From NCBI GenBank assembly GCA_002794705.1, contig PGTK01000006.1, forward strand, positions 50,959-114,958: 64,000 nt of DNA, written 5' to 3'. Made by a program: the position numbers and the translations under genes. Position 1 is the stretch's first letter, and the number at the start of each line of letters is the position of its first letter. Of the stretch, positions 7,592 through 47,672 are shown in pieces. The notes beneath the pieces are model-generated. The model saw nothing but the letters and a program-made list of their open reading frames with translations. It ran no database searches and had not been told where the DNA came from. This stretch comes from Candidatus Thermofonsia Clade 1 bacterium (GTDB lineage: Bacteria > Chloroflexota > Anaerolineae > Aggregatilineales > UBA2796).

Positions 7592-7604
7592 GCGCTCCTC
7601 AGAA

Positions 7605-13979: not shown

Positions 13980-14079
13980 CGGTTTTCGCCCGCCCGCTCA
14001 AGGTTAGAATTTCCTGAATTCCATATAGTCTACAGCGAATTGAAGCACCATGCAACAGGCACGGTCAACAGCCAAGTGG

Positions 14080-15684: not shown

Positions 15685-15697
15685 GCCGATGCACCTC

Positions 15698-16738: not shown

Positions 16739-16768
16739 CTGTGAACTCTCCGTTTCTCTCAAACGGGC

Positions 16769-18245: not shown

Positions 18246-18385
18246 GCTGTATCCGTTCCATGTGATGGGCAGTCTGGCTAATACTATACGCAAAAAGCTG
18301 AGCTTTGGCTAACAAAAGTGGCAAGCGCGGGCAAAAGCTGCCACAATCAGCGTGCATCAACGGTTTTCAGAGAGGTATACCCATC

Positions 18386-31723: not shown

Positions 31724-33265
31724 CTAGTCAGGCAGCAGAACGGGGCGAAAGCCGATTGAGTCTAGCTCAATAGAGGGGATGTTCTGGTAGCGATAGAAGG
31801 TGTTGACCTGCCTCCCCTCTGATGACCAAGCGCCGCCGCGCAGCACGCGCGGCGCGGCGCCATTCAGGTGCGTGGCGTCGCTCTGCCATTCGGTCAGGCA
31901 CCACTCCCAGATGTTGCCGTGCATGTCTAAAACGCCAAAAGGACTCGCGCCACTAGGATAGGCGTCTACAGGCGTGGGCGCGCCAATGCCCGATTCTCGC
32001 GTGTTGCTGCGCCTGGGATCGAAGTGCTTACCATAGGGATAGCGCCTGTTATCATCGCCCTGAGCGGCATGTTGCCACTGTAGCTCAGTGGGCAGGCTTA
32101 CGCGCTTGCCCGTGCGATGACTCAGCCACAGGCAGAACGCCACAGCATCGAACCAGCTCACGCACGTGCGCGGCATACGGTCGCCCAGAACAACCGTCGG
32201 CTTGGGCTGCGGACGCTTGCGCCGCCACGCCATTGCCTGCAGCGAGTACGTCCACCAGCGGATATCGCGGTAGCCGTCGGGTGCGTCCAAAAAGACCTGA
32301 TATTGGGCATTGGTGATGGGCGTCTGGGCAATTTTGAAGACGCCCACAGCGAACAAGCCGCCCCCAGAGCCGGGCGGATTATATTTGCGCGGATCAGAAG
32401 CGTCTTCAATGAAAACATGCCCTTCCGTCACGGCACACCACGCAAAATTGGGCAAAAAGTCGCTCACATCAACCTTGAATGTATTGGTCTTAGGGCGCGG
32501 ACGCAGATGATAGGCAAGGTCGAGCGGATCATCGGTATATTCAGGGTAATCGCGGCGGAATTGCGCCCAAGCTCTACAGGCTAAGTCCAGATTGACGTGG
32601 CGCAAGGCGGCGATCTCTTCGTAAGCCTCTTGTGCCTCTTGGCGGCGGCGCTGTTGGTACAAGCTGTGCTGCGCGTGTTCGATTACAGCCTGCAGCGAAA
32701 AAAAGCGCGGCTGATAGCCTTCGGCGGCAAGCGCCTCCAGCAGCTCAAGGGCTTGCTCGTAGGCTTCATCGCGGATCAGGGCAAGTGCCTCTGCAAAACG
32801 CAGCCCGGACTTGCGCTGTTGCGGGCTGAGCATCTGGCGCGGACGCTCAGCTGAGTTGCTCTCAGCAAGAGCGTGCAGCACGCTGCTGATCATGGCTTGG
32901 TGCGGCTTATGCACAAAATCATGGATGTGCAGTCGGCCAGGCGAGATGGTGATGGGCAGGCTGTTCAGATCGGTCTTGCGCACGAGGATCGGCACGATGA
33001 TCGGGCGGCTTTCGGGCGGCAAGCCGGCGGCATGATCCAGCTCAATGCGCGAGCCGCTGTTCACCTTGATTGACTCAGGCGAGATGGCGAAGATAAAGTG
33101 CGTACACTGCTCAATGCCCGCCTTGATCTCCTCCCAATAGGGCATATGTCCGCTGATATGCCAGATATCTAGCCAAACATCATGCTCAGCGCGCAGCAAA
33201 TGCTCGGCTAACATCAAGATAAAGGGGCGATCTTGTGAGTTATAACTGAGGAAAACTCGCGCCAT
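31724..33265 (-). CDS. TIR domain / helical linker / FGE-sulfatase-like fusion
   Basis: From ATG 33263-33265 the protein has 513 residues. Residues 1-135 are a TIR domain: ARVFLSYNSQDRPF, VWLDIWHIS, FIFAISPESI and SRIELDHA, whose Glu matches the NAD-cleaving Glu of active TIRs. Residues 150-245 are helical and TPR-like (ALELLEALAAEGY). Residues 265-513 are a formylglycine-generating-enzyme (SUMF1/EgtB-fold) domain: TPITNAQYQVFL, RTCVSWFDAVAFCLWLS, LPTELQWQHAA, DMHGNIWEWC and RGGAWSS. The Cys pair needed for formylglycine formation is missing near the C-terminus (SIGFRPV where active enzymes have a Cys), so this domain probably binds ligands. Such fusions are typical of bacterial conflict or signalling systems; the effector role is inferred. 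Confidence 0.85.
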   Translation of the reverse strand: MARVFLSYNSQDRPFILMLAEHLLRAEHDVWLDIWHISGHMPYWEEIKAGIEQCTHFIFAISPESIKVNSGSRIELDHAAGLPPESRPIIVPILVRKTDLNSLPITISPGRLHIHDFVHKPHQAMISSVLHALAESNSAERPRQMLSPQQRKSGLRFAEALALIRDEAYEQALELLEALAAEGYQPRFFSLQAVIEHAQHSLYQQRRRQEAQEAYEEIAALRHVNLDLACRAWAQFRRDYPEYTDDPLDLAYHLRPRPKTNTFKVDVSDFLPNFAWCAVTEGHVFIEDASDPRKYNPPGSGGGLFAVGVFKIAQTPITNAQYQVFLDAPDGYRDIRWWTYSLQAMAWRRKRPQPKPTVVLGDRMPRTCVSWFDAVAFCLWLSHRTGKRVSLPTELQWQHAAQGDDNRRYPYGKHFDPRRSNTRESGIGAPTPVDAYPSGASPFGVLDMHGNIWEWCLTEWQSDATHLNGAAPRVLRGGAWSSEGRQVNTFYRYQNIPSIELDSIGFRPVLLPD

Positions 33266-33477
33266 AGAGTGCGCTTTCAGGGAAAGAATTTTTACATTGC
33301 TTTTATTATGCGGCAAAAGCCATTTTAGCGCCTATGGCAAAAATTAGACGTTGTCACTTTTGTGAAACATTTGAAACTTCCGTGAAGATGGTTTAAGCCG
33401 CCCAAACTGCCTCCGAAAATGCCTGCGTACGCACTGCCACTTTTTATGGTACGATAAAGCTGTTGCGGATAGATGTA

Positions 33478-33490: not shown

Positions 33491-35524
33491 ATGCAGGCGA
33501 TTCTCACTCTTTTGCTGCTGCTCGGCTTGGGCGTGCTGGGTTTTGTGGTGGCGGGCATCCGCTATGTGCCGAACAATCGCGTAGGCATCGTGGAAAAGCG
33601 CTTTGCCCTCAAAGGCTCGGTCAAAGCTGACTCGTTCATCGCGCTAAACAGAGAGGCAGGCTATCAGCCCAATGTGCTGCGCGGCGGCTTGACGTGGCTC
33701 ATGCCAATTCAGTATAAAGTCCACTTGGTGCCACTGGTGACCATCCCACAAGGGCAGATCGGCTATGTTTTTGCCCGCGATGGCATTCCCCTAGCGCCCA
33801 CACAAGCGCTTGGATGCGTGGTCCCTGAAGGCAAGACCTTCCAAGACGTGGAAGGCTTCCTGAAAAATGGTGGGCAGCGCGGTCCGCAGCGCGAGATATT
33901 GCGCGAAGGCACTTATGCCCTGAATCTGGTGCTGTTCGTTGTTTTCACAGAAGACGGTCTATACTACCTGCCGATCAGCCGTGAGGAAGAGGCAGTCTTC
34001 AAGCGCATGGGCGGCTTGCTGCGCGAGCGCGACGCCTTCCGCCCGGTTGTGATCAAAGGCTCAGATGATAAGATCGGCATTGTGACCGTCCATGACGGAC
34101 CAGCCCTTGAGCAAGATGAGATCATCGCGCCCGCCGTCGGCACGGATCCGAGCGATCCCACCACCTATCACAATAACTTCCAAGACCCCGAAAAATTCCT
34201 GCGCGCAGGCGGCAGGCGCGGACGCCAACTGCAGGTGATCGTCGAAGGTACGTACTACATCAATCGCCTGTTCGCCACTGTTGAGCTGATCAACAAGACC
34301 ATTGTGGAGGTCGGCTTTGTGGGCGTGGTGGTCTCGTATGCAGGCTCACGCGGCGGCGATGTCTCCGGCGAGGAATACAAGCACGGCGAACTCGTCCAGC
34401 GCGGCGAAAAGGGCGTCTGGAGCGAACCACTCATGCCCGGCAAGTACGCTTTCAATACCTATGCCGGTCAGATTATCATGGTGCCGACCACCAACATCAT
34501 CCTGAAGTGGAACAAGGATGAAATGGGGACGCACCGCTTTGACGAAAATCTCTCCGCCATTGAGCTGATCACCAAAGACGCCTTCGAGCCAGTCTTGCCG
34601 CTCTCGGTAGTCATGCACATTGACTACCGCAAGGCGCCGCTGGTCATTCAGCGCTTCGGCGATATCAAAAAGCTGGTGGATCAGACGCTTGACCCGATGG
34701 TCGCCGCCTACTTCAAAAACATCGGGCAGACCCGCACCCTGATCCAGCTGATCCAAGAGCGCAGCCAAATCCAGCAGCAAGCCTCCCAAGAGATGCAAGA
34801 GCGTTTCGCCCACTACAATCTGGAGTTAGAGGAAGTCCTGATCGGCACGCCCGCCTCCTCCACCTCTGACCGCAAGATCGAGGAAATCCTCGCTCAGCTG
34901 CGCGACCGTCAAATTGCCATTGAGCAGATCGAGACCTACAATCGCAAGCAGCAAGCCGCCGCCAAAGAGCGCGAACTGCGCCAAGCAGAGGCAATCGCCA
35001 AGCAGCAGACTGCCCTCACGGAGTCTGAGATCAGCATCACGATCCAGAGCAACGAGGGTAAAGCCGCCTATCAGCGCTCTTTGCAGGAAGCCGCTAAGAT
35101 CAGAGCGCTTGCAGAGGCAGAGGCAGAGCGCGACGCCCGCATCGGTATCGCCCGCGCCATTGCCATCGAAGAGCAGGTGCGCGCCTACGGCGGACCGCAG
35201 TTCCAGGTCTTGCAGCAGGCGCTGGATCGCTTCAGCCAAGCTGTGGAAAACGCCGGCATTGAGATCGTGCCGCGCATGGTAGTGACCTCAGGCGGCGGCG
35301 AGCAGGGCGGCGGCACCTACAGCGCCTTCGAGGGGCTGATGATGCTGTTGCTCTCCGAAAAGCTGGGCGTGCAGATGAGCGATAACATCGCCAGCAACGG
35401 CGCCGCCTCTGAGGAAATTCGCCGCCTGCGCGAGAGCATCCTCAGCAGCATGAGCCGCCCGACGCAAGGCGCGCCAAACGGCGGCGAACACACTGCAGCG
35501 CAACCTGCCGATCAGCGCAGCTAA
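33491..35524 (+). CDS. SPFH/band-7 (flotillin-like) membrane protein
   Basis: A 677-residue protein. An N-terminal hydrophobic helix (about 3-23) is followed directly by an SPFH start (VPNNRVGIVEKRFALKG). The SPFH region is interrupted by an insert of roughly 150 residues and resumes around 265-460. A long Ala/Glu/Gln/Arg-rich coiled coil (470-590: EIEQIETYNRKQQ, REAEAIAKQQ-like) precedes a Gly/Ser-rich tail, as in flotillins (YuaF/FloT partners). Flotillins organise membrane microdomains and large oligomeric cages. Its strong AGGAGG site sits in the hairpin just upstream. It lies directly before the phage-like module, from which a terminator separates it. Confidence 0.82.
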   Translation: MQAILTLLLLLGLGVLGFVVAGIRYVPNNRVGIVEKRFALKGSVKADSFIALNREAGYQPNVLRGGLTWLMPIQYKVHLVPLVTIPQGQIGYVFARDGIPLAPTQALGCVVPEGKTFQDVEGFLKNGGQRGPQREILREGTYALNLVLFVVFTEDGLYYLPISREEEAVFKRMGGLLRERDAFRPVVIKGSDDKIGIVTVHDGPALEQDEIIAPAVGTDPSDPTTYHNNFQDPEKFLRAGGRRGRQLQVIVEGTYYINRLFATVELINKTIVEVGFVGVVVSYAGSRGGDVSGEEYKHGELVQRGEKGVWSEPLMPGKYAFNTYAGQIIMVPTTNIILKWNKDEMGTHRFDENLSAIELITKDAFEPVLPLSVVMHIDYRKAPLVIQRFGDIKKLVDQTLDPMVAAYFKNIGQTRTLIQLIQERSQIQQQASQEMQERFAHYNLELEEVLIGTPASSTSDRKIEEILAQLRDRQIAIEQIETYNRKQQAAAKERELRQAEAIAKQQTALTESEISITIQSNEGKAAYQRSLQEAAKIRALAEAEAERDARIGIARAIAIEEQVRAYGGPQFQVLQQALDRFSQAVENAGIEIVPRMVVTSGGGEQGGGTYSAFEGLMMLLLSEKLGVQMSDNIASNGAASEEIRRLRESILSSMSRPTQGAPNGGEHTAAQPADQRS

Positions 35525-35565: not shown

Positions 35566-35835
35566 TTAGCTGCGTTGCGGCGAGTCGAGCTTGCCGTCGG
35601 TCACGTCCGCCGCCAAATCGCCCACGTCTTTGAGCGCCAAAGCGATTTGCCGAATGACGTCCGCCGCCTCAGCCGGGAGCGCCTGATACGCCAACTCCAA
35701 AGCCCGCTTGTTGGCGCGCAAAATCGCCAAAAATGCCGCAATGCCGCCCGCCGTCACCAAGCCGAACGCCGCAAACACCAAAATCACAGCCGCGCTGACA
35801 ATCGTTGCGATCGCCTGAACATCCATGCTCTCCAT
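35566..35835 (-). CDS. Small single-span membrane protein, last gene of phage-like operon
   Basis: ATG 35833-35835 has AGAGGAGAG 7 nt upstream and gives 89 residues; longer in-frame starts lack this. One hydrophobic helix (IVSAAVILVFAAFGLVTAGGIAAFLAIL, near residues 8-35) is followed by a charged amphipathic C-terminus. Size, topology and position after tail genes fit a holin-like or tail-associated membrane protein, but a single helix and no adjacent lysin make the holin call weak. Confidence 0.55.
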   Translation of the reverse strand: MESMDVQAIATIVSAAVILVFAAFGLVTAGGIAAFLAILRANKRALELAYQALPAEAADVIRQIALALKDVGDLAADVTDGKLDSPQRS

Positions 35836-35885
35836 GACTTTTCTCTCCTCTTTGAACTCAGATTCGGACACCACCTATGCCAGCA

Positions 35886-36260
35886 TCAGGTTTCTCTTTT
35901 CACCATGCTGACAATTTCCCTCAGAATGCGCTTGAGCAACGGATCGCCCAAGCCCTCAATCAGCTCATCCAGACTGCCCTCGATGATCGGCACGCTGCGC
36001 TCTTCAGGCGGCGTATATGCCTTTACACGGCTGCGCACCTCAGCAATTTGTTCTTCTGAAATGCTCAATGCGCAATGCACAACCGTGCGGTAATCGCCGT
36101 AATCGCCCGTTGACACGCCAAACACAGCCGCGATGTCCGCCAAAGCCTCTGTGAGCGCCTGTGCCTCCACCTCTTTTTCAAAGTACAGGTCGAGCCTGTC
36201 CGCCTCGCGCCGCTCTTCAAACGTTCGCTCTTCAGGCGTCTGCTCATCCATCACGCCCAT
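35886..36260 (-). CDS. Hypothetical protein of the phage-like operon
   Basis: The ATG at 36258-36260 shares one base with the stop of the upstream gene (TGATG), with GGAGGTGG just before, so 124 residues is the likely product. It is highly acidic (ERTFEERREADRLDLYFEKEVEAQALTEAL cannot bind DNA readily) and predicted mostly helical. Its place after a fibre-like gene suggests a tail assembly chaperone or accessory; no family was recognised. Confidence 0.6.
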   Translation of the reverse strand: MGVMDEQTPEERTFEERREADRLDLYFEKEVEAQALTEALADIAAVFGVSTGDYGDYRTVVHCALSISEEQIAEVRSRVKAYTPPEERSVPIIEGSLDELIEGLGDPLLKRILREIVSMVKRET

Positions 36261-36757
36261 CACGCCACCTCCATCGCCCAAAAGACCACAGGGCTGTTCA
36301 CAGCGCGCAGCGTCGCCGTGCCGGAAGTAGCGCGCCACACGGGGCGAAAGGTATGCGAACCGACCGTCAAGCCCATGACAAGCGCCGTGTAGGATGCAGG
36401 CACGTGAATAAAGCCTGTGGCTGTGTGCACCTCTAACAAGCCGTTTGACACAGTGGTGTAGCGGTTGCCATCTACCGTGAAGTCAAAGCAATAGAACGGA
36501 CCCGAGTTGACTTCAGCCACACCCGAAAAGCCGACCAGCACTGCGCTCCCTGAGATGGTCAAGGTGATGCTCAAGTTTGTCGCGTCAATGTCCACGAAAG
36601 TGGTGCTAGTCGTCGTGTAGTTTGAAGACGCTACGCGGATGATCCGCTGATGAGGGCGGCTGAGCAAGTAGTTCATGTTATCCCGCAGCTGCTCATTCAG
36701 CTGCGTAGCCGTCACCACTTGCGCCGATACCCATGTTGTGGGCGTCGTCCAAGGCAT
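36260..36757 (-). CDS. Tail-fibre-like phage protein
   Basis: A 165-residue protein. The start (PWTTPTTWVSAQVVTATQLNEQLRDN) is a module seen at the N-terminus of many small phage tail or fibre-associated proteins, where it is thought to mediate attachment or trimerisation. The rest is beta-rich with Thr/Ser/Gly (TISGSAVLVGFSGVAEV), like a receptor-binding head domain. It overlaps the next gene by one base. Confidence 0.65.
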   Translation of the reverse strand: MPWTTPTTWVSAQVVTATQLNEQLRDNMNYLLSRPHQRIIRVASSNYTTTSTTFVDIDATNLSITLTISGSAVLVGFSGVAEVNSGPFYCFDFTVDGNRYTTVSNGLLEVHTATGFIHVPASYTALVMGLTVGSHTFRPVWRATSGTATLRAVNSPVVFWAMEVA

Positions 36758-36760
36758 ATT

Positions 36761-39379
36761 TCACACTCCCAGTCTTGTCGTCTCGTCCAACTTGCCGTAA
36801 GTAGCATCGCCCAAGAGCCAGAACGTCACGTCTTGCAACGGGCGCACGCTGAACTCCACATTGAGCGTCTTGTGCGCGTCAAGGGCGTAGCTGATGCCCG
36901 TCACCAGGTACTTCTGGTTCGTAATCATCAGCTGATAGTCGGTCACTGTGATGACATCGCCGATGTCGATGCTCACAATCGGCACGTTCGCGTCCAGATA
37001 GCGCTGATTTTCGAAACTGAGCCGCCGTATGCGGTAGACAGGCTCTAGATAGCGCCCGATCAGATACTCTGCCAGACTTTCAGCGTAGAGCTGCTTGACG
37101 GGCAAAGGCAGATTGACCGATAACTCTCGCACGCCGTATTTCGCCTGACTTGCCTTATCCTCGCGCACATAGCGCACAGGCTCATAGGAGACAATCGCCT
37201 CGCCGCGCAATTGGAAATCCTTGATGAACAGCGTGCCAAGCGCGCTATTCTCTACCGTCACCTCGATGTCCGTTGCGGAGCGCGCTACTGCGAACTTCAG
37301 CACATCTGGATGTAGCGGATGAGCCGTGTAGTCCACGCCCGTGCCGTCTTCCCGCTCGTTTGCCGTGTAGTCCACAAACGGCTCAGGCGGCAAGCGCAGA
37401 TTTTTTGCCGCCGTAATGCGCCCGCGCGCTAAGTCCACAAACGGCACTTTGACGACCGTTGTGCCGTGCGGCGGCATGTCCTGCGTAATGCCAAAGCGAT
37501 TGGCGCCCTCAGGCGGCTTGTTTGCAGCCCCCCACCTGCCCGGCGCTCGGATCACGCTGTTCATCTTTGCCACCACGCCTGAAGCAAGCGTGCGGCGCGG
37601 CGTACAGCTCACCACCACGCGATTGTAAATCTCCTCGATGCCATAAGTTGCCTCATGACTAGCGTGATGATCGTCTGTTTTGGCAACAGGCGCCGCTAAA
37701 GTGCGCTCATTGGCATAATACCGATTCTTGAAAACTAAAGTGCCATCACGCGCCTGCCAAAACATGCCGCGCTCGCTCTGGACGACTTGCTCTATGGCGC
37801 TCAAAGCATTGGTATCGTCCTCGCGCCACTCATCCGCGGCAATGTCAAACACCTCCGCGCCCGTCTCAAGACTGAGCGCGGGGTAGTCAGCGCCCGAGAC
37901 GACGGCAAAGCTGTCAATGAAGAGCGCCGCGCTTGTCTCAGCGATCGGCATAGTGTTTGCCCACGAGCCTTCTGTCACAGCGCTCAGCCAAATGCCCAAA
38001 CCTGGGAAAGGAAGTGAGCTGTTGGCAAGTCCCGTCAAGTCTGCGCGCAAAAAGAGCGCAAATTCCGCATAGTCGCCTGGCGTGTACTCGCCGTTATAGT
38101 AGACTGCCCAGCCCAAGCCCATGCGCTTGGTCTCATGGTCAATGTTCACGCTCAGCGGCACACTTGCATCAATGATGAGCGTGTCCCAATTCCAGACTTT
38201 GAGCGTCCGCGCAAGGTAATCGAAAGCAACCACCAAGCGGTTCCAACTGCCAAACGTCACTGCCCCTACAGCGCTATCTGCCTCCCAGACGCCCGCGATA
38301 AAAACTCGGAGGTTACCGTCTGGATAAAGGCGCATGAGAAATAAGCCGTCAGTGGAAAAATCCACGCCGTTGTTCCAGCCCACAATGGAGCGCTGTCCGA
38401 CTGAAAATGCTTGAGGTCTGACCATCACATGCAAACTGAAACTTCGGCGGCGCATGTCAATCGGCGGGATGCTCACACCTTGCCCGAACACAAGCGTTGT
38501 TGTCAGACAAGTGAGCGGCTCTTCGCTGTAGATTGGCGAGCTGGTCACGCCAAGCGTAGGACTGCCAAAATAGGTGGCATTCCGCTTGTTCTCGCCGATA
38601 TCGAGCGCCTCTGTGCCGTTTGTCTCAGCAAGACGATAGTAGCGCACAGGGTTGCGGTCTCTGATCCAGCCCGTTGTGCCGCGATTGTACCATTCGGCAA
38701 TGAACGATTTCGGCTGCTTTGTGCCGGCAAAGTACTTTTCGCCCTCGCCCTGCCCGCCGTTGATAGCGCTCATCAGGTATTCAAGCTGCAGATAGCGCAA
38801 CTGCGCGGGATTGGTCGCGGCAGTGGTCAGGCGCTTCACGTCGTTCGCCTGCACAGGCGTCTCTTTGAAGCGATAGGTCACGTCGTCAACCGTCACTGTG
38901 TCATTTTCAGCGATTTGCGCCGCGCCCAAATACTGCAAGGGACGCTTGTGAAGCGTTTGGCGGAACGCCCGCGCCGTGATGACGCGAATGAGCTGGTCAG
39001 CTCTCACATCCTCTTGCAAGGGCAAGGTGATGTTGGTTGCTTGCAGGGTGCTGAGCAGGTCTTCGCACTCGATTGTTGCCTCCCGCTCAGCATACTGCCC
39101 GCTTGAGAGCGTGAGACGGCGCATCCGCCCTACGAACACGGTTACGCCGTCAATCTTCACCTCTACAGGTTTGTTTGGCACAATCAAACCATAATGCGGA
39201 CTGCTCAAGTTGTTCGGCGTGAAGCGTCTATCGCTGTTATCAAGGCGGAGGTAGCATACGCCGGGCGCCGCCATGCCCGCCATTGGCGTGTGAATGCCGA
39301 TCCGCACATACAGGCGCTTGAGGAACGGCGTCAAGTTCAGCGGCGCGTTGTTGGCTAGAGTCAAAGTGACCTCAAACAT
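36761..39379 (-). CDS. Large phage tail-tip-like protein with LamG domain
   Basis: ATG 39377-39379 with GAGAGG upstream gives 872 residues; a GTG two codons earlier is less well placed. Residues 1-140 resemble distal tail or hub proteins (LRLDNSDRRFTPNN, VFVGRMRRLTLSSGQYAEREATIECEDLL). About 255-450 is a laminin-G/concanavalin-like jelly roll (YYRLAETNGTEALD, FSLHVMVRPQ, WNRLVVAFDYLARTLKVWN), commonly a carbohydrate binder. The C-terminal third has further beta modules. It is the probable host-contact protein of the particle. It is long for a podovirus adaptor and short for a siphovirus tape measure, and shows no coiled coil. Confidence 0.7.
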   Translation of the reverse strand: MFEVTLTLANNAPLNLTPFLKRLYVRIGIHTPMAGMAAPGVCYLRLDNSDRRFTPNNLSSPHYGLIVPNKPVEVKIDGVTVFVGRMRRLTLSSGQYAEREATIECEDLLSTLQATNITLPLQEDVRADQLIRVITARAFRQTLHKRPLQYLGAAQIAENDTVTVDDVTYRFKETPVQANDVKRLTTAATNPAQLRYLQLEYLMSAINGGQGEGEKYFAGTKQPKSFIAEWYNRGTTGWIRDRNPVRYYRLAETNGTEALDIGENKRNATYFGSPTLGVTSSPIYSEEPLTCLTTTLVFGQGVSIPPIDMRRRSFSLHVMVRPQAFSVGQRSIVGWNNGVDFSTDGLFLMRLYPDGNLRVFIAGVWEADSAVGAVTFGSWNRLVVAFDYLARTLKVWNWDTLIIDASVPLSVNIDHETKRMGLGWAVYYNGEYTPGDYAEFALFLRADLTGLANSSLPFPGLGIWLSAVTEGSWANTMPIAETSAALFIDSFAVVSGADYPALSLETGAEVFDIAADEWREDDTNALSAIEQVVQSERGMFWQARDGTLVFKNRYYANERTLAAPVAKTDDHHASHEATYGIEEIYNRVVVSCTPRRTLASGVVAKMNSVIRAPGRWGAANKPPEGANRFGITQDMPPHGTTVVKVPFVDLARGRITAAKNLRLPPEPFVDYTANEREDGTGVDYTAHPLHPDVLKFAVARSATDIEVTVENSALGTLFIKDFQLRGEAIVSYEPVRYVREDKASQAKYGVRELSVNLPLPVKQLYAESLAEYLIGRYLEPVYRIRRLSFENQRYLDANVPIVSIDIGDVITVTDYQLMITNQKYLVTGISYALDAHKTLNVEFSVRPLQDVTFWLLGDATYGKLDETTRLGV

Positions 39380-39388
39380 GCGCACCTC

Positions 39389-39814
39389 TCAATCCCAGAG
39401 CGCATCATCGGCAAAGAGCGGCGCGCCGTCGCTCTGGAAGGTCAGGCGCAGCAGCAGACCGCCGCCCTGCGGCGCACTGACCCGCCGCTCCGCCACGATC
39501 ATCGGATAGCCCGCCTTCGGCGCGCCGCTGAAGTTGCCCACCACGCCCCAGATCAGCTCCCCACGGGCGCCCACGCGCAGACGCGGCAAGGCGCTCAGGG
39601 CAAAGGGGACTTGCGCCCGTGTGAAGAAGCCCTCCCATGTGAGCGAACAGGCGCGCACGCCGATCAGCACGCCCCGCGCTGCTGCGTTGCCGCGCGTGTT
39701 GCCGTGCAGCGTCACGCTCTCGCTCATCTCAAAGTTGGTGCGCGCCGCCGAAAGGACGAGCGCGCCGTCTGAGTCGTGCCATTCGGCGTAGATGGAGCGT
39801 TCAGCGTAGCTCAT
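39389..39814 (-). CDS. Probable phage tail protein
   Basis: A 141-residue beta-rich protein (GVLIGVRACSLTWEGFF, LRVGARGELIWGVVGNFSGAPKAG). The pattern suits a tail-tube or neck protein. The ATG overlaps the stop of the preceding gene by 4 bp, so it is part of the same translation unit. No specific family was recognised beyond context. Confidence 0.55.
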   Translation of the reverse strand: MSYAERSIYAEWHDSDGALVLSAARTNFEMSESVTLHGNTRGNAAARGVLIGVRACSLTWEGFFTRAQVPFALSALPRLRVGARGELIWGVVGNFSGAPKAGYPMIVAERRVSAPQGGGLLLRLTFQSDGAPLFADDALWD

Positions 39815-40395
39815 TCGCGCACCTCATCTGTCCGCAGGAAAGGCGCAGCGCGCACGCCGCTGAGCTGGCGGAAACGCATTGCCTGCGCCGTGCAATGCTC
39901 ATACTCCTGACTCGCCTTCAAGCCGTGTCCGCCTGCCCAATCGAGGCGCGCCGCTGCGAAGGCTGCTTTCTGCTCCCAGATGCTGGCTGCCGCGCCGTAC
40001 AGATCGTAGTGACGGGCGTCTATCGTGTAGGGGAGACCCTCCTGATCGTCGGCAAAGACCACGCGCCGCGCCCTATAGTTGATCGTGAAGCCGCTCGTGA
40101 GCGCCGCGCCGAACGAATCGCGTATGGCAAAGCCGCTATCGGGCGCCGATTCCTCGATCCAGACGCCCAGTGCAGTCGGAAAGGCGTATTCGTAATAGCG
40201 ATAGGCGCCATCAATGAACTGGGGCAGGGCGATCAGCGGCGCGCCGTAGAGCGTCCGCCGCGTGGCGTCTAGCTCCGCCTGCAGCATCTCATCTGACCAG
40301 TAGGTGAGCGCGCCGACGATCAAATCTGACTCGCCAACAGCGCACAAGGCGCGCAAATGCGCGATCAGCGGCACCATACCGAGCCGTGCCGTCAT
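39811..40395 (-). CDS. Probable head-tail connector-like protein of the phage-like operon
   Basis: The 194-residue protein lies directly after the capsid gene, where head-completion or adaptor proteins are encoded in tailed phages. It has an N-terminal helical part (LIAHLRALCAVGESDLI, YWSDEMLQAELDATR) like gp6/gp15-type adaptors, then a beta segment and a C-terminal helix. AAAGGAGC precedes the ATG. The first repeat element (40428-40516) separates it from the capsid gene. Assignment rests on position and secondary structure. Confidence 0.55.
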   Translation of the reverse strand: MTARLGMVPLIAHLRALCAVGESDLIVGALTYWSDEMLQAELDATRRTLYGAPLIALPQFIDGAYRYYEYAFPTALGVWIEESAPDSGFAIRDSFGAALTSGFTINYRARRVVFADDQEGLPYTIDARHYDLYGAAASIWEQKAAFAAARLDWAGGHGLKASQEYEHCTAQAMRFRQLSGVRAAPFLRTDEVRE

Positions 40396-40427
40396 GCTCT
40401 GCTCCTTTCGCTAAAAATGGACGAGAC

Positions 40428-40516
40428 TCCTATCCCCGACCCTTTCCCCGCAAGCAGGGAAAGGGAGGCATATGCTTCCCCGCCCTGCTTGCGGGGCGGG
40501 AAATGAGGGGTGGGGT
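40428..40516. repeat. Two-hairpin REPIN-like element, copy A
   Basis: Hairpin 1 (40440-40465) is CCCTTTCCC / GGGAAAGGG around loop CGCAAGCA. Hairpin 2 (40479-40500) is CCCGCCC / GGGCGGG around loop TGCTTGCG. The two loops are exact reverse complements. It fills the gap between the capsid stop and the ribosome site of the next gene, so it could also act as a terminator or RNA-processing site. Confidence 0.85.
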
Positions 40517-40517
40517 C

Positions 40518-41366
40518 TTAGCTAGGCAGCGTGGCAAGCCCGATCAGCTTAACGCCCATGCTCGGGCGCCAAACGCCGTGCGCAAACCACAGCGAAAAGT
40601 TCAGCTCCAGCGCCTCACGCGCCTCGTTGCGCTGCGGACGCATATTGAAGGCGCGCCGCTCATCGTAGGCGAGGGCGAGCGGCGAGTACATCGCGCCGAC
40701 GGCGTTGTCATCCTCCACAGCGATGCTGGGCGTGACCACAAAGGTGACTCCGCCGATCAGGCTCGCCACAAAATACGTCGAGACCAGCGCATCCTGAAAG
40801 GCGGGCGCCTGCTGAAGCTCCGTGCCGCTCAGCGCCGCGCTCTCCACAAGGCGCAGCCACTGATAGGGATGCAGGGCGCAGAAATATGGGGCAGGCACTT
40901 TGGCGTTATGCAGCAGCGCACGCGCACGCAGGACATGCGCCCAAGTCAGCGCCGAATCGAGCGCGCCAAAGCTGCCGCCCGTCAGATCGGCGAAGTTCGA
41001 GGCGATCTTGGCGTCTACAAACTCGGCGAAAGCGGCGCCCATCTCCAGCGCCACGTCCACGCGCACGTCCTGTGGATCCGTGGCGATGCGCTGATCGGTC
41101 AGGATGACCTGATCGGCGTAACGCGCCGGAGTCAGCGTGCTGAGCGCCGTGCGATTGAAGGCGGTCGCTGTGACGCTATCGCCCTCGCCAAAGGGACGCA
41201 CGTTCGCGGCGCTGTAGAGCGTCGCCTTGCGCGGCGCCATGCCGCGATTCTCGCTGAAGACGGTCACAGTGCGCACAAGGGCGTTATTGGCGCGCAAGGT
41301 GAAGTAGGCGCCCTCGTAGATATCCTCGATCAGCGCTGCGATATCGCTGTACTTCGAAAGAGTCAT
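40518..41366 (-). CDS. Major capsid protein (HK97-fold phage type)
   Basis: A 282-residue protein with the usual order of small HK97-type capsid proteins: N-terminal arm, an E-loop-like segment (ENRGMAPRKATLYSAANVRPFGEGDSV, residues about 38-64), P-domain helix (VRVDVALEMGAAFAEFVDAKIASNFADL) and A-domain (CALHPYQWLRLVESA, GVTFVVTPSIAVEDDNAVGAMY). The phrase on reporting the host Hoc-like end is SLWFAHGVWRPSMGVKLIGLATL. There is no N-terminal protease-processed delta domain, which fits the separate scaffold gene just upstream. An encapsulin nanocompartment is an alternative for the fold, but the neighbouring portal and tail genes favour a phage-type capsid. Confidence 0.75.
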   Translation of the reverse strand: MTLSKYSDIAALIEDIYEGAYFTLRANNALVRTVTVFSENRGMAPRKATLYSAANVRPFGEGDSVTATAFNRTALSTLTPARYADQVILTDQRIATDPQDVRVDVALEMGAAFAEFVDAKIASNFADLTGGSFGALDSALTWAHVLRARALLHNAKVPAPYFCALHPYQWLRLVESAALSGTELQQAPAFQDALVSTYFVASLIGGVTFVVTPSIAVEDDNAVGAMYSPLALAYDERRAFNMRPQRNEAREALELNFSLWFAHGVWRPSMGVKLIGLATLPS

Positions 41367-41386
41367 CGCCTAGCCCTCCTGATCCA

Positions 41387-41716
41387 TTACTCCCCATCAC
41401 TCCAACGGACGCCGCCGCGCCCAAACGGATTGGCGCGCCCGCTGCGGCGATCGCGCAACCAGCTCAAGTCAGGCGCAGCAGGCTCAGCGGCGTGCGCCGC
41501 GCTCACGGACGTTTGGCGCGGACTCTTCAAAGCGCGGGCGAGCGTCGCGGCGTCTTGTGCCAGCTGATCGGGGTCTTCGGCGCGCAAGAGCGCGATCAGC
41601 TCTTGCGGAATGCCGTGCTGCGCCGCGAGCGCCTCGCGCCGCGCCTTTTCCAGCTCCGATTGCAGCTGCGCAATGAACAATTCCTGTGTCTCTTCAGGAT
41701 TTGGCATCTCAGCCAT
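41387..41716 (-). CDS. Scaffold-like protein of the phage-like operon
   Basis: A 109-residue protein, charged and helical at the N-terminus (QELFIAQLQSELEKARREALAAQHG, a coiled coil) with a Gly/Arg/Ser C-terminus. It sits between portal and capsid genes, the standard place of the internal scaffold. TAGGAGG lies upstream of the ATG. Unusually short for a scaffold, which is commonly 150-300 residues, but the composition fits. Confidence 0.6.
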   Translation of the reverse strand: MAEMPNPEETQELFIAQLQSELEKARREALAAQHGIPQELIALLRAEDPDQLAQDAATLARALKSPRQTSVSAAHAAEPAAPDLSWLRDRRSGRANPFGRGGVRWSDGE

Positions 41717-41753
41717 GTGCGGAACGACCTCCTAACGTGAAAAACGGACGAAT

Positions 41754-41844
41754 ACCCCACCCCTCAGTCCCCGCCCCGCAAGCAGGGCGGGAGGCATGTT
41801 TCCCCCTTTCCCTGCTTGCGGGGAAAGGGCAGGGGATAGGGGTC
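41754..41844. repeat. Two-hairpin REPIN-like element, copy B (inverted relative to A)
   Basis: The sequence is the reverse complement of copy A with a few changes: the GC-rich hairpin comes first, then the CCCTTTCCC-type hairpin. It lies between the end of the portal gene and the ribosome site of the scaffold-like gene. Copies A and B share a flank AAAAA(T/C)GGACGA at 40415-40426 and 41740-41751. Confidence 0.85.
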
Positions 41845-41862
41845 TGGCGAAAAAAGCAGGGA

Positions 41863-43005
41863 TTACGGCAAGGCAACCGGTAGCGGGTCTGCCCACGTGA
41901 CGCGGATCGGCGCCGTGAAGTCTGCCTCGCCTGCCAACATGCGCAGGGCTTGGCTGAGCGCGATCACGCCGATCTCATAATTGCGGCGTAGCTCTTCGGT
42001 CTTGAAGAGGGCGTCCATGTAGAGCGTGCGCACGCCCAAATTGGTGATGTGCCGCCAATCGGCGACCGTGCCATCAAGCACCACCACGCGCTGCTCAGCG
42101 AGGAAGGCACGGGTCAGGAAGGTGACGGCGTTTAGGCTGCTCGCTAAGTCGGTCTGCATCTCCAGATTGAAAACCTTAGCGTCCGCCTTGGGGATCGTCC
42201 AGAGCGTGTTGATGGCAGTTGGCGTGAGATCGCGTGCCTCAAAGCCAATGCCGACTGTGCGCGGCGCCGCGTGATAGCGCAAAATGCGCGCTACATCGCT
42301 CATCAGCTTATTGACGCGATCGTTCAGGGCAAAGTTGTTGATCTCCGCCTGCCCATAGAAGCCGTTCGGCGTTGCCTGATGCTGCCAGCTGATAATCGGC
42401 GGCAACGGATAGCTCCATACGCCCGTCTCAAGGCGCTCCCAGCCGCCCCCGTCTTCCCGCCAAGTGTGGATCAGCCACGCAGACTCGGCGCGCACCACCT
42501 CCTGACGGTAGCTCAGCCGCCCATGCGACCAATGCACCTCGTACCACAGCACCTCTTCATAATCATCAGCCCGCCAAAAGGCGATCACGTTGGCGGGATT
42601 GAGCGCGATCAGGCGCGGCGCTGAGTCGGGCGCCTCGGGCGGCAGGGCGCGCACAAAGACATGCCCACTCAAGCAGCCCTGCCTAGCAACCTTCGCCAAA
42701 AAACGGGCGCCGCCATTCACCGCCCAGAGCGCCTCCAGAGCCGCCGCCCGCTCGGGCTGCGTGGGCAGTTCCAGAGTCGGGAAGCGCGGCATCAGCAGGC
42801 TGACCGTGCGATCAATGGCTTGGCGCACAAGGTTGATGACCACATTATCATCGCCCTCTTCGCCTTGAGCGCGCAAATGGCGCTTGTGCAGACCGTTGTA
42901 ATAGTCGTAGGCGCGCCCATAGGCGGCACGACGGGCGCGCAGCTCGGAGTCAGCGGCGGCACGCAGGTCAGGATCGTCGGGTGCGTAGGCAAGGGCAGGC
43001 GGCAT
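41863..43005 (-). CDS. Phage portal protein
   Basis: Start ATG 43003-43005 has GAGGTGAG just upstream and gives 380 residues; an in-frame start 16 codons earlier reads into the promoter region. Portal hallmarks are AYDYYNGLHKRHL (the N-terminal YYxGxH/Q motif), NVVINLVRQAIDRTVSLLMPRFP, GHVFVRALPP, ALNPANVIAFWRADD, and the wing/stem segment NGFYGQAEINNFALNDRVNKLMSD. Portals form the dodecameric ring through which DNA enters the capsid. At 380 residues it is compact (many are 400-500). It opens the operon; no terminase gene lies upstream. Confidence 0.8.
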   Translation of the reverse strand: MPPALAYAPDDPDLRAAADSELRARRAAYGRAYDYYNGLHKRHLRAQGEEGDDNVVINLVRQAIDRTVSLLMPRFPTLELPTQPERAAALEALWAVNGGARFLAKVARQGCLSGHVFVRALPPEAPDSAPRLIALNPANVIAFWRADDYEEVLWYEVHWSHGRLSYRQEVVRAESAWLIHTWREDGGGWERLETGVWSYPLPPIISWQHQATPNGFYGQAEINNFALNDRVNKLMSDVARILRYHAAPRTVGIGFEARDLTPTAINTLWTIPKADAKVFNLEMQTDLASSLNAVTFLTRAFLAEQRVVVLDGTVADWRHITNLGVRTLYMDALFKTEELRRNYEIGVIALSQALRMLAGEADFTAPIRVTWADPLPVALP

Positions 43006-43043
43006 TCTCACCTCACTTTCGCTAGAGCGGCTGAGTGTGAGAC

Positions 43044-43072
43044 AGCTTAGCACAAATGTTCGAAAATGTCAA
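43044..43072 (-). promoter_or_regulatory. Promoter of the phage-like operon
   Basis: Read leftward: TTGACA at 43072-43067, 17-bp spacer, TAAGCT at 43049-43044, about 38 bases before the portal ATG. The -35 is perfect and the spacing ideal, so the host's housekeeping sigma factor could transcribe the module. The spacer contains CACAAATGT on the + strand, resembling sites near gpsA and the sugar-importer operons. Confidence 0.6.
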
Positions 43073-43081: not shown

Positions 43082-43218
43082 GACCCCCAACCCCGACTCT
43101 TCCTCCGCAAGCAGGGGAAGGGGGTTATCTGCTCCCCGCCCTGCTTGCGGGGCGGGGACTGAGGGGTGGGGTTAGACCCCTATCCCCTGCCCTTTCCCCG
43201 CAAGCAGGGAAAGGGAGT
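43082..43218. repeat. Two-hairpin REPIN-like element, copy C (one and a half units)
   Basis: A full unit (43082-43172) in the same orientation as copy A is followed by the first half of another unit, with a CCCTTTCCC / GGGAAAGGG hairpin. It lies between the end of the E2 gene and the promoter of the phage-like operon, marking the border of the module. Confidence 0.85.
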
Positions 43219-43242: not shown

Positions 43243-44547
43243 CTACCACGCTAACATGGCGGGCGTCTCTAGCGCCTCGCGCAGGTCGCGCAGGAAGTAG
43301 GCGGCATGGGCGCCATCTACCACGCGATGATCAGCGCTGAGCATCAGGTTGAGCATCGGCTTCAGGACGGGTTTGCCCTCCTGATCTGGCACGAATTGCT
43401 GGACGATCCGCCCAACTGCCAGAATTGCCACCTGAGGCGGATTGATGATAGCTGTGAAGCGATCCACGCCGAACATGCCCATGTTGCTGATGGTGAAGGT
43501 GCCACCGCTGACCTGATCGAGGGTCAATTTGCCTGTGCGCGCCAACTCAGCCAGACGATCTACCTCTTGCTGGATCGCCTGCAGCGAGAGCCGCTCAGCG
43601 CTGTGGATGACAGGCACGATCAAGCCGTCATCAAGCGCCACAGCCATGCCGATGTTGGCAGTGTTCCAATAGGAGATTTCATCGCCTTCAATGGTGGCGT
43701 TCAAGGCGGGATGCTTGCCGAGCGCCCAAGCGCACGCCTTGATCAAGAGCGCGGTCACGGTCAGTTTGGCGCCACGTGCCTTCAAAACCGAGCGCAGGTG
43801 CGCCACGGCGCTCATCTCAGCCGTCGCCTCTAGGAAGATGTGTGGCGCGGTCTGGAAACTCTTCTGAAGGCGCTGCGCAATGGTGCGGCGCATCCCTTCA
43901 AGGCGCACCACACGCCGATCCAGTGGCTCTGAAATGGGCGGCGGCGCTATGGGCTGCGTATCGCGCTTGCCAAGCGGCTTGGCGGGCGCTTGAGGGACTT
44001 CGACTGTGTGAGCGGTCAAGGCGGCTTGCACGTCTGTCCCCTGCACGCGCCCGCGCGGACCTGTGCCGTGAATCTGGGCGAGGTCAACGCCGTGTTCAGC
44101 CGCCAGACGGCGCGCTGCAGGTGTGGCGCGCACCTTATCCAGCGCCTGTTCTACGTCGCGGCGCGTGATCTTGCCGTCGCGCCCGCTGCCTTGCACGGCA
44201 GTCAAGTCCAGATGGTTGCTCTCGGCAATGCGGCGCGCTAGAGGCGTGGCGGTTGGGACGCTCTGTGCCGTGCTAGTCGGCACAGGCGCTGCAGCCTGCG
44301 CGACCTCATCCTCGCGCAATAGATAGCAGATCACCTCCGTGACTGGCACAACATCGCCCGCCTTGTACAGAATTTGGTGGACGATTCCATCTTCGGTCGC
44401 CTCGACTTCCATATTGACCTTATCAGTGGTCACTTCGCAGAGCGGATCGCCGCTGCGGACTCGGTCGCCTTCGCGCACCAGCCACTGGACGATCTCACAG
44501 CTCTCTAAGGTGAAGCCGAATTTCGGCATGATGATCGGCACGGGCAT
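43243..44547 (-). CDS. pdhC: Dihydrolipoamide acetyltransferase (E2) with two E3-binding domains
   Basis: The 434-residue protein has a lipoyl domain (residues 1-78, lipoyl-lysine in [11 protein letters not shown]), then two consecutive peripheral-subunit-binding domains of about 35 residues: [20 protein letters not shown] near 101-140 and [20 protein letters not shown] near 143-180. The catalytic domain (about 207-434) ends with the active-site DHRVVDGA. It transfers acetyl from E1 to CoA in the pyruvate dehydrogenase complex. A tandem pair of binding domains is unusual; most E2 have one. It is encoded after both E1 genes. Confidence 0.9.
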
Positions 44548-44550
44548 GGC

Positions 44551-45546
44551 TCAATACTCGCCTTTCACCAGTTTGCGCGCCTCGCGCACAATGCTCTCAA
44601 CTTGCGGCACGGCATAATATTCCAGCTCGCGGTTGTACGGGATCGGGATATCTAAGCCCGCCAAGCGGCGGATCGGCGCCTCTAGATAATCGAACGCCTC
44701 GCTCCCTGCAATGCGCGCCACGATCTCGCCGCCGAAGCCGCCCATCTCAACTGCCTCATGCACTACGAGCGCACGCCCCGTCTTTTTGATCGACTCGATG
44801 ATCGGCACGTCATCCAGCGGCTTGAGCGTGCGCGGATCGATCACCTCCAGCTCGATCCCCTCTTTAGCCAGTTCCTCAGCCGCCTGCAGCGCTCGCACCA
44901 CCATGATCGAGGTCGCCACAACGGTCAGGTGCTTGCCCTCGCGCACGATCTGGGTCTGGCTGAGCGGCACGATGTAGGGCTCTTCAGGCACATGCCCCTT
45001 GGTCTTATAGAGCAGCTTGTGTTCTACGAAAATGACGGGGTTGTTGTCCAGCACGGAGGCGCGCAACAGACCCTTAGCATCGTAGGGCGTGCTGGGCATG
45101 ACCACTTTGAGGCCCGGCACATGCACAAACCAATTTTCGAGGCTCTCGCTGTGCTGAGCGGCTGCGCCCGTGCCGCTGCCGCCGGGCATGCGCAGCACCA
45201 TCGGCACGCTCGCCTTGCCGCCAAACATGAAGCGCACCTTCGCCGCCTGCAGCACCAGCTGCTCCATGCTCAGCGTGACGAAGTCCATGAATTGAATCTC
45301 GCCAATGGGGCGCATGCCCGTCAGCGCCGCGCCGATGCAAGCGCCGGCAATGCCCGCCTCTGAGATCGGCGTATCAATCACGCGCTCCGCGCCGAACTGA
45401 TCGATCAAGCCCGCCGTGACGCCGAAGGCGCCGCCATACACGCCGATATCTTCGCCGATCAAGAAAACGCGCTCGTCTTCCTCCATCAGTTGGCGCAAGC
45501 CCTCGCGGAGCGCCTCAGCGTAGGTCAGTTCGCGCACTTCAGGCAT
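44551..45546 (-). CDS. pdhB: Pyruvate dehydrogenase E1 component, beta subunit
   Basis: ATG 45544-45546 overlaps the end of the alpha gene by 8 bp and begins the family alignment ([17 protein letters not shown]), giving 331 residues. Diagnostic parts are [14 protein letters not shown] (thiamine pyrophosphate contact), [25 protein letters not shown], and [13 protein letters not shown] near the C-terminus. With the alpha subunit it decarboxylates a 2-oxo acid and passes the acyl group to lipoyl-E2. Pyruvate is the most likely substrate; acetoin or branched-chain acids are alternatives. Confidence 0.9.
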
Positions 45547-46549
45547 AGACACCGTCCATAATATCGGCAACGTTCGGGGCAGGACTCGCCTCGCTAAAGG
45601 CGACCGCCTCATCAATAGTGGCGATAGCCCGATCGCGCATGTGTGCCGCTTCTGTCTCGCTGATCACGCCCGCCATCAGCAGCAGATTGGTGAAACGCAG
45701 GATCGGATCGCGCCGATCTTGCCACTCGCGGACTTCCTCACGGCTGCGATAGGCCTGCTTATCGCTCTTGGAGTGTCCCTTATAGCGGTAGGTCTTTGCC
45801 TCAACCAGAGTCGCGCCTTCGCCGCGCCGCGCCCGCGCTGCCGCCTCGCTCACAGCGCTGTAGACCGCTAAAACGTCGTTGCCATCTACTGTGACGCCCG
45901 GCAAGCCGTAAGCAGCCGCCCGCTGACTGATATTCTCGATCTTGAACGCCTTTTCCACAGGCATGGACATGGCATACTGGTTGTTCTCGCACAGAAAGAC
46001 TATCGGCAACGCCCAGATAGCCGCCATGTTGAGCGCCTCATGGAAGGCGCCTTCGTTCGCGGCGCCATCGCCGAAGATCACAAGGCAGACCTGACTGGTG
46101 CGCCGCATCTTGATGCTCAAACCGACTCCGACGGCAATCGGGATGCCGCCCGCCACAATGCCGTTGGCGCCCAAGTTATTCGACTCGACATCGGCAATGT
46201 GCATGCTGCCGCCGCGTCCGCGACAATAGCCCGTCTCTTTGCCCATGAATTCGGCCATCATGCGATTGGGATCGGCGCCCCATGCCATGCAATGTCCGTG
46301 ACCGCGATGATGGTTGAGCAGGTAATCGCCCTCTTGCATGGCGTTCGCCGCACCGACGGCGGTCGCCTCCTGCCCGATGGAGAGGTGCATGGTGCCATGC
46401 ACCTTGCCCTGCATGTAGAGCTGCTCAGCGCGCTCTTCAAAGGCGCGGATAGTGTGCATCTCTTGGAGCATCATCTTCAGCGCCTCTGGACCGAGGGTCT
46501 CGATCAGATCGTGATAGCGCTGAATCAAGTCCTGTGATAGTTGAATCAT
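45539..46549 (-). CDS. pdhA: Pyruvate dehydrogenase E1 component, alpha subunit
   Basis: 336 residues from ATG 46547-46549 (GAGG 9 nt upstream; an earlier in-frame ATG lacks a site). The thiamine-pyrophosphate motif is [23 protein letters not shown]...[31 protein letters not shown] and GRGGSMHI are further E1-alpha marks. Forms an operon pdhA-pdhB-pdhC with overlapping or closely spaced genes. No E3 (lipoamide dehydrogenase) gene is in the window. The gpsA gene lies 28 bp upstream and is probably co-transcribed. Confidence 0.9.
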
Positions 46550-46577
46550 GTGCCGAGTCCTCATCCTTTGATACGAT

Positions 46578-47672
46578 TTAAGCGCCCTGTGCGCGCTGGC
46601 GCAGCGGCGGCGCGAACGGCAATTTGCTGAAAAAGCTCTCGAAGTCAAAGGCGACCGCTACATTGCGCGTCAGGATGCGATACAGCTCGCGCAGGAGCGG
46701 CAAGGCGTCCGCCTCGATCTTGCCCTGCGCGATCATGTGCTCAATGGCAGGCATGACGGCAAGCACGCAGTCCACACCTTCAACGGTCTCATCAGGCATC
46801 TCTTCAACGGCATCGCTGTAGGGCTTGCCCATGCCCAAGAGTCGTCCCATGCGCGAGTTGCGTCCGCCCTGTGTGGTGACGTACAGATCGCCGGCGCCGG
46901 GCAGGCTGAAGACGGTCTCCAAGCTGCCGCCCAGCAACTGGACAAGGTAAGCAGTCTCTGCCAAGCCCTGCGCGAAGATAGCCGCCGCATAATTGTGATT
47001 CTTAGCAGCGGCAACATCCGGCGGCAAGGTCTCCAGCACGCCCTGCGCAATGCCTGTGGCTAAGGCGTAAGGATTCTTGAGCGCCACACAGACTTCCACG
47101 CCGATCATGTCGGTTGAAGTCCAAATGTGGTAGTAGGGCGTGGCAAAGACCGCTTGCAGGCGCGGCAAAATCTCGGCATTGCGCGAGACAAATACTACTG
47201 AAGTGTGGCGGCGCGCCGCTAACTCGCCAGCGATGCTCGGGCCGCCAATGGCAGCGTAATGCACCTGATGACGGATCGGCTCAGGCAGCCGCGAGGCAAG
47301 CACATCAGGCAGCACCATCAAATTGCCGTCGGGCGTGCTCTCCAAGCCCTTGGTCGCCATCAAGATGATCTGCTCAGGCTGCAAATGCGGCGCAATTGTC
47401 TCAGCAGCCCAATGCACGCCCCGCGAATTGACGCCTAAGACCACGATCTCCGTGCCGCGCATTGCCTCCGCGATCTCGGCATGATAGAATGGCTGCACAT
47501 TGGGCGGGATCGGGCGCTTCAGCTTGGGATGAAAACCCGTTTCTTTGCAGCTTCTAATGATTTCCTCATCAAGGTGTGTGCCCGCCAGCCGAACGCTATG
47601 TCCGTTATCTGCGGCTGGGAAAGTGAGCGCTGTTCCCATCACACCTGCGCCAAAAACAGTAATCGTGGTCAC
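46578..47672 (-). CDS. gpsA: Glycerol-3-phosphate dehydrogenase [NAD(P)+]
   Basis: GTG 47670-47672 (GGCAGG upstream) begins the Rossmann start [15 protein letters not shown] and gives 364 residues; the upstream extension is out of family. Further marks are [16 protein letters not shown], the substrate lysine in [15 protein letters not shown], and GAGDLYVTT with the C-terminal helical domain. It makes sn-glycerol-3-phosphate for membrane lipids. Slightly longer than E. coli GpsA (339). The best promoter in the window precedes it. Confidence 0.88.

Follow-up and report, generated by a model that had tools for sequence, protein, structure and literature searches.

A phage-derived structural gene module in Candidatus Thermofonsia-type Chloroflexota, most likely part of a gene transfer agent

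Gene transfer agents (GTAs) with a known genetic basis stem from few lineages, and the 2022 GTA classification treats three independent groups (PMC9662315). Among the described systems, BhGTA (VSH-1, Brachyspira, Brachygtaviriformidae) combines a structural cluster lacking a terminase with a single terL elsewhere (PMC9662315), and FpGTA of Faecalibacterium is encoded by a small gene set in two operons about 125 kb apart (PMC12946183). The two are the nearest precedents for the locus reported here, a nine-gene structural module in a 64,000-nucleotide stretch (hereafter the window) of a Candidatus Thermofonsia Clade 1 bacterium (assembly GCA_002794705.1, contig PGTK01000006.1, positions 50,959 to 114,958). 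We propose, with a probability of roughly two in three, that this module encodes the structural part of a phage-derived particle, domesticated and passed on vertically in Aggregatilineales or Candidatus Thermofonsia-type Chloroflexota, most likely a gene transfer agent. It can be said more firmly, and is very probable, that a domesticated particle gene set has been kept here under selection. With moderate confidence we regard its working as GTA-like, and this description claims no membership.

The nine genes are tightly packed on the minus strand at 35566-43005, and all nine frames are open, just as an initial annotation, made from the letters of the window and the source of the coordinates, had described them. 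The nearest phage is an uncultivated tailed-phage contig, IMGVR_UViG_3300005686_000138 (20,314 bases; L081 denotes its bases 1-13748 and L234 its bases 2219-20314), with homologues of six of the nine window genes. The portal protein (41863..43005; 380 amino acids (aa) from its ATG) matches PHROG 104 (E 1.4e-8) and has 56 homologues, from which a tree was built. Its longest frame begins at 43053, but the ATG at 43005, which agrees with the homologues, is the more likely start, a correction to the initial annotation. The major capsid protein (type 1; 40518..41366; 282 aa; 118 homologues) was likewise identified correctly from the outset, as it matches Pfam Phage_capsid_4 (PF25209) at 36.9 bits, with a cut-off of 27, and PHROG 267 (E 2.1e-8). 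The scaffold-like protein between them (41387..41716; 109 aa) matches several PHROG scaffold families, but weakly (best E 0.0012); the gene occupies the same position in L001, L009 and L016, with 69-75% identity.

On the tail side, the 141-aa protein (39389..39814) adopts a tail-tube fold in an AlphaFold2 (AF2) model with a pLDDT (predicted local distance difference test) of 85.6, and its best PDB matches are the tail tube of siphophage R4C (E 1.9e-5) and the RcGTA particle chains 6toa and 6tba, which bears out the tail assignment. The 194-aa protein (39811..40395) matches none of the hidden Markov model (HMM) libraries, and a fold search against the PDB was empty at E 0.001; it is called a head-tail connector because of position, since an alignable, 42%-identical gene of phage L234 sits between head and tail genes, and the earlier connector-like label stands on that relationship. 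The 874-aa tail tip or hub protein (36761..39385) aligns over its full length with the L234 protein that follows the tape measure (36%, 853 columns, E 9e-152) and matches PHROG 5313, a family of unknown function (E 3.1e-9). The tip part of its initial designation as a LamG tip protein therefore holds, but the LamG-like region is weak, with a match below the Pfam cut-off. It is followed by a 165-aa protein (36260..36757), a homologue of the gene after the tip in L234 (37%, E 1.6e-26), by a protein of up to 150 aa (35886..36338), an open frame matching no Pfam or PHROG family, and by a small protein of 102 aa or shorter (35566..35874) that resembles a 97-aa L234 protein (37.5%, E 1.8e-19) and has, judged by eye, a single hydrophobic stretch. 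Because the 150-aa frame at its longest shares 79 bases with the 165-aa gene, it probably starts further in.

Five of the six common genes of the phage stand in window order; the 102-aa homologue, in contrast, precedes the connector in the phage and lies at the end in the window. Identity reaches 52% for the portal, and the tube homologue is weak (E 0.004). The phage differs in having its own terminase (KKSGK) near the portal, a morphogenesis gene (Pfam Phage_Mu_F), a tape measure (PhageMin_Tail), a gp10-like gene (match below the Pfam cut-off), head-closure and terminator genes, named by position and size only, and a capsid of another type with a strong PHROG 267 match. In L234 the closure, gp10-like and terminator genes occupy the gap between connector and tube, and the tape measure and small genes that between tube and tip; in the window, the connector and tube genes share 4 bases, and 3 bases separate tube from tip. 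This comparison shows the window module to be a tailed-phage structural set with specific genes missing. The nearest named phage, Microcystis phage Mae-JY09 (PP395641.1), has a related capsid (38% over 96% of the query) and portal (25% over 78% of the query), but is a complete 39-kb phage with its terminase gene close to the portal gene. Glycosyltransferase or other sugar-related genes, named partly by eye, lie between or near capsid and tail genes in several related phages (L049, L105, L168, L172, L234 and L018).

To find the packaging gene, 13 genomes, 11 of which belong to the family (G001 to G011), were searched with the terminase of the nearest phage. A large-subunit homologue is present in seven, all within the family, and is full-length and open in G001, G003, G004, G005, G010 and G011. 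A PHROG 2 search of the 11 genomes gave only weak terminase matches in the close relatives of the window, which the nearest-phage query did detect. Portal matches occur in six of the 11 (G001, G003, G004, G006, G010 and G011; in G003 the 3' end alone, at contig starts), and all six also have the terminase. Terminase and structural block lie on different contigs in G001, G003 and G004, and the terminase loci are flanked, where flanking sequence exists, by what look like housekeeping genes. With the housekeeping-like divergence and the recurrent block described below, the separate terminase in seven of 11 family genomes favours one reading offered by the initial annotation, a GTA-like locus with its terminase encoded in another place.

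In G001, G003, G004 and G005, terL overlaps with or directly adjoins a gene of about 190-215 aa. The G004 copy matches neither Pfam nor PHROG families, and from its position we would guess a small terminase; beyond TerL and this upstream gene, no conserved neighbours of the terminase loci were found. Downstream of terL, G011 (L217:10506-10736) and G006 (L221:1036-1275) have a small gene containing two Cys pairs, and one that looks similar by eye precedes the terminase in phage L081, just upstream of 623. No close relative of the G004 terminase turned up in viruses: the viral_contigs gave a single match (25%), and the best of 50,697 phage records reached about 30% over under half of the protein. 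A further weak terminase match in G006 (35%) shares its contig with a tape-measure-like match and thus belongs to another phage. Two portal loci may be mentioned here. G430, of the same order, has an open portal gene (L166:10908-12314) and, about 9 kb away on the same contig with bacterial genes between, a tail-tip gene (L166:271-1950), and gave no match to the L081 terminase query; in G004, a 932-aa AAA/TPR protein (L009:7450-10248) is encoded just upstream of the portal gene.

To assess selection, the ratio of nonsynonymous to synonymous divergence (dN/dS) and dS itself were calculated by the Nei-Gojobori method. Portal and capsid, for which the initial annotation had called for this check, give dN/dS values of 0.15-0.19 (three pairs) and 0.08-0.13 (six pairs). 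Values for the connector (0.11-0.15), scaffold (0.13-0.27), tube (0.19-0.37), TerL (0.15-0.27) and terL-upstream gene (0.19-0.37) come from six pairs each, and the N-terminal part of the tip gives 0.12-0.22 (three pairs; dS is saturated and reaches 3.4). Between the window and G004, dS is 0.88 for the portal, 0.57 for the scaffold, 0.63 for the capsid, 0.70 for the connector, 0.61 for the tube and 1.18 for the tip, and the controls, pyruvate dehydrogenase (PDH) E1-beta and GpsA, show 0.63 and 0.87. Between G001 and G003, TerL (1.08), capsid (0.96) and connector (1.43) compare with 1.05 for E1-beta; between G001 and G004, portal (0.93), TerL (0.82), capsid (0.86) and scaffold (1.32) compare with 0.69. 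Near-housekeeping dS together with dN/dS values of 0.08-0.37 indicates vertical descent under purifying selection and not recent prophages. Identity ranks of TerL, connector and tube correlate with those of PDH E1-beta (rho 0.79 in all three cases, ten non-independent pairs), as do those of the scaffold (rho 0.94, six pairs).

In a tree of 44 terminases, six genome and ten database proteins fall on one side of a branch with support of 95/92; relative to a first tree of 55, 11 rows were left out (near-duplicates, long branches, P0222 and P0223), and the P-loop column was kept in both. In the grouped terminases the P-loop changes from KKSGK to KKSAK, with P0175-P0189 and P0202 reading KKSAKS. 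Of the other proteins in P0190-P0224, P0212 reads KKSCKT and P0224 KKSLKT, no motif was found in the fragment P0221, and the rest read KKxGK[ST]; SAK reappears in more distant terminases from P0232 on. The terminases of G001 and G003 are identical, letter for letter, to Candidatus Thermofonsia Clade 1 and Chloroflexi bacterium CFX4 proteins. A DE pair and three Asp columns, which we take to be the catalytic residues, are invariant in 15 aligned sequences. The portal tree places G001 and G004 with the window and P0001-P0004, while G006, G010 and G011 form a second group; the portal of phage L081 falls beside the window-containing group with weak support (84/85), so the portal tree alone does not show one origin. 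Terminase carbon content is slightly lower in the SAK group (5.00 in 16 proteins vs 5.04 in 33 others, p 0.013). Terminase carbon content is a GTA signature in the classification paper (PMC9662315); it was not used here, since the proteins also differ in GC-linked residues.

Relatives also carry the structural block, with its parts dispersed to different degrees. Contig 1 of G010 (2,111,020 bases) holds three loci, spaced 139 and 16 kb: terL at 1,564,212-1,565,684; capsid (type 2), connector, tube, LamG, tip and 167-like genes on both strands at 1,704,637-1,714,280; and scaffold with portal at 1,730,392-1,732,148. A scan of G010 with 428 open reading frames (ORFs) from 20 phage or prophage loci, covering about 43% of contig 1 and about 19% of the genome, found no further structural genes in 898,024 bases of contig 1 at E 1e-4; the other matches look by eye like transferases, epimerases, transporters and similar proteins. 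On contig 2, among housekeeping genes, a 182-aa frame weakly matches the phage morphogenesis gene (L252:6823-7985; 27%, E 2.8e-8; 26.6% in a second comparison) and is probably a fourth, decayed piece. In G006 (L014) the order is a membrane gene, portal, scaffold, type 2 capsid, a glycosyltransferase-like gene, connector and tube. Connector and tube overlap there by 4 bases, as in the window, and a weak match to the start of the tip lies 283 bases past the tube, at the contig end; the window module and G006 have their deletion junctions in common. In G010, connector and tube are 14 bases apart.

The capsids of G010 (L250:8638-9510), G006 (L014:2603-3463) and G011 (L251:1525-2409) differ in type from that of the window and are 60-66% identical to the capsid of phage L234. 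Portal and connector are nevertheless homologous, which indicates a capsid swap. That G010 and G011 had kept portal and scaffold alone was considered and ruled out when the L234 capsid query found the other-type capsid. A joined query for the missing phage genes, a single-sequence query that diverged genes could escape, detected only the capsid and the G010 morphogenesis piece in six genomes (G001, G003, G004, G005, G010 and G011), and gave tail-type matches in G006, G007, G430 and G469.

If the module works as a gene transfer agent, the scaffold and capsid proteins would build a head on the portal, and a terminase from another locus would dock on the portal and load chromosomal DNA into the head. 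Closing the particle and binding a recipient cell would then fall to the connector, the tip and one or a few rings of tail-tube protein. With the tape measure, head-closure, gp10-like and tail-terminator genes gone, the tail is probably very short. The alternative that survives best, though unlikely, is a domesticated particle kept for a role other than transfer, such as a protein shell or a surface-binding particle for killing or signalling, with the terminase repurposed or left over. In its favour, capsid, tube and tip have been conserved despite the loss of many phage genes, and no lysis gene was identified beside the block in the PHROG scan of the window. It accounts poorly for a TerL under purifying selection with its catalytic residues kept, and for a terminase in every portal-bearing family genome, given that portal and terminase are DNA-packaging parts.

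The surroundings of the module bear on a second alternative. It is flanked by a band-7/SPFH gene (33491-35524) and the PDH E2, E1-beta and E1-alpha genes (43243-46648), which agrees with the flotillin-type and pyruvate dehydrogenase flanks originally described. Nearby, one gene (31724-33316) combines a TIR domain with a sulfatase-modifying-factor (FGE-type) domain. The gene that comes after the PDH operon in G001, G002 and G004 is another one, common to these three, so the window block occupies a different site from that in G004, a genome with 94% identity in E1-beta. A check for the same block in related genomes, as the initial annotation had suggested, found the block again, at a differing site in G004. 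Palindromic repeats that have CCCCGCAAGCAGGG as their core occupy three gaps in the module. The first gap lies ahead of the portal gene (43100..43215), the second separates portal from scaffold (41770..41840) and the third capsid from connector (40430..40517). Seven of the eight core matches with at most two mismatches in the 64 kb lie in module gaps, and such repeats also occur in gaps of the phage-like loci of G003 and G004 (in L016 near 278, 1600-1644 and 2717-2779; in L180 at 30-119). The exact core is found in two of seven genomes (13 copies in G004, several at contig ends, and three in G003), mostly elsewhere, and the repeat was therefore rejected as a tag of the module. Two G003 contigs, C34 (L015) and C7 (L016), have in common their bases 1-310 (96% identity), which include the 3' end of the portal gene, and diverge at a repeat of this type, one running into the block and the other into unrelated genes. 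Recombination at the repeats could plausibly account for the scattering, although the assembly may contain a strain mixture. The host-like TTGACA promoter proposed for the module reduces to a -35-like hexamer: a simple scan found no promoter-like site upstream of the portal, and regional sites number 1 against a shuffle mean of 2.0.

A phage satellite or mobile capsid cassette that borrows helper-phage parts would explain the differing sites of the block in the window and G004, and the repeats in gaps and at the alternative junction in G003 would suit it as well. We nonetheless consider it improbable. Capsid-forming phage satellites carry an integrase and their own regulation or replication genes beside the capsid genes. 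Of the 49 other window ORFs of at least 80 aa, 47 were scanned against PHROGs (two at the window edges were left out), and neither such genes nor a terminase, tape measure or lysin were found among 25 of the 34 matching families, the scope of all statements here on the window scan; the initial annotation had likewise seen no terminase, tape measure, integrase or lysin. The flanks are housekeeping genes. Terminase and structural genes lie apart and both diverge like housekeeping genes, and the terminase has no near-identical counterpart in the viruses searched.

Remnants of one or several old prophages, with genes left open by chance, are an equally doubtful explanation. Many phage genes are indeed missing, the portal of G006 is disrupted, the morphogenesis piece of G010 looks disrupted as well, and some more distant genomes (G336, G069, G155 and G226) have the same portal family beside a terminase, as prophages or fragments. 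Such remnants would not be expected to show dN/dS well under 1 at near-housekeeping dS. In a simple neutral simulation (substitutions only, 1000 runs, two rates), no run at either rate kept an open portal, tip or TerL frame; an open frame survived in 4 of 1000 runs for the capsid and in 12 and 8 for the connector. That the window and G006 retain the same genes and have the same deletion junctions, and that there is one supported TerL group, also speaks against remnants, and the nearly complete degenerate prophage considered in the initial annotation is disfavoured by the housekeeping-like dS, the low dN/dS and the recurrence in relatives. A prophage gene set (integrase, replication, and lysis with packaging) was not found among the 47 scanned window ORFs; att sites were not searched. 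A single prophage cut by the window edge is rejected, as about 35 kb and about 21 kb of other genes flank the block.

Several observations weigh against a gene transfer agent. Neither portal nor terminase was found in four of the 11 family genomes (G002, G007, G008 and G009), G005 has a terminase without a portal or capsid match, and the terminase of the window's own genome is presumed from relatives. In G006 the terminase is split over two contig ends and the portal carries an in-frame stop. The morphogenesis-like piece of G010 is short and seems to continue in a second frame, where a CoA-transferase frame also begins. The window portal is about 54 aa shorter at its C-terminus than the 434-aa portals of G001 and G004 and ends near a palindromic repeat, and the block sites differ as described. 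In the six genomes searched with the joined query, no homologues of the tape measure, closure, gp10-like or terminator genes and no lysis gene were found. The controls have lower dN/dS (PDH E1-beta 0.05-0.07 in ten pairs, GpsA 0.05-0.10 in six), so constraint on the phage-like genes is weaker, and the rank correlation with PDH E1-beta is not significant for portal (0.71), capsid (0.38) and upstream gene (0.49; six pairs each). The first tree of 55 terminases left the SAK group unresolved. Finally, formation of particles, their content of host DNA, its delivery and the short tail are inferred from the genes.

Taking the gene transfer agent as the preferred reading, a tentative history, which we would put somewhat short of an even chance, is one old domestication before the family diversified. 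The tape measure and most of the tail would have been lost, the terminase, portal and capsid scattered via the palindromic repeats and the alanine P-loop fixed, and the capsid type would have changed once while portal, connector and tip stayed. If the gene transfer agent is real, it would mean that domestication took place independently in a deep and mostly uncultured phylum, giving a particle with a reduced tail and a packaging motor encoded far from the shell. A single-copy KKSAKS terminase outside any prophage would then be a marker for finding more, and gene flow in these bacteria would become directly testable. Titles and abstract openings of the literature covered, mostly non-subscription, report no GTA from Chloroflexota.

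Of the features by which GTAs are defined in the classification (PMC9662315), three were recovered by computation: a tailed-phage origin of the particle proteins (from matches to profiles, folds and phage homologues), endogenised genes over several loci (in relatives; the window shows one locus), and mostly vertical co-diversification (in few genomes and without a species tree). The definition further asks for particles that contain mainly random fragments of host DNA, are unable to package their complete gene set and deliver DNA to other cells (PMC9662315). RcGTA (Rhodogtaviriformidae) shares phage-derived genes over several loci and vertical descent, and its entries 6toa and 6tba match the window tail-tube fold, but it has five loci and a longer tail (PMC9662315). 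Kinship with the Rhodogtaviriformidae capsid was not recovered, as portal and capsid profiles matched no PDB sequence at E 0.001, with RcGTA particle entries present in the PDB searched. BhGTA differs in its endolysin and 65-nm tail and in that its particles, packaging and transfer were shown experimentally; like the Chloroflexota set, it has homologues in related species without conserved gene order (PMC9662315). FpGTA has its terminase in one operon with portal, scaffold and capsid and a known lysis operon, whereas here terminase and capsid lie apart and no lysis genes were found; it resembles the present set in a possible small terminase without an obvious DNA-binding domain and in particles without identifiable tails (PMC12946183).

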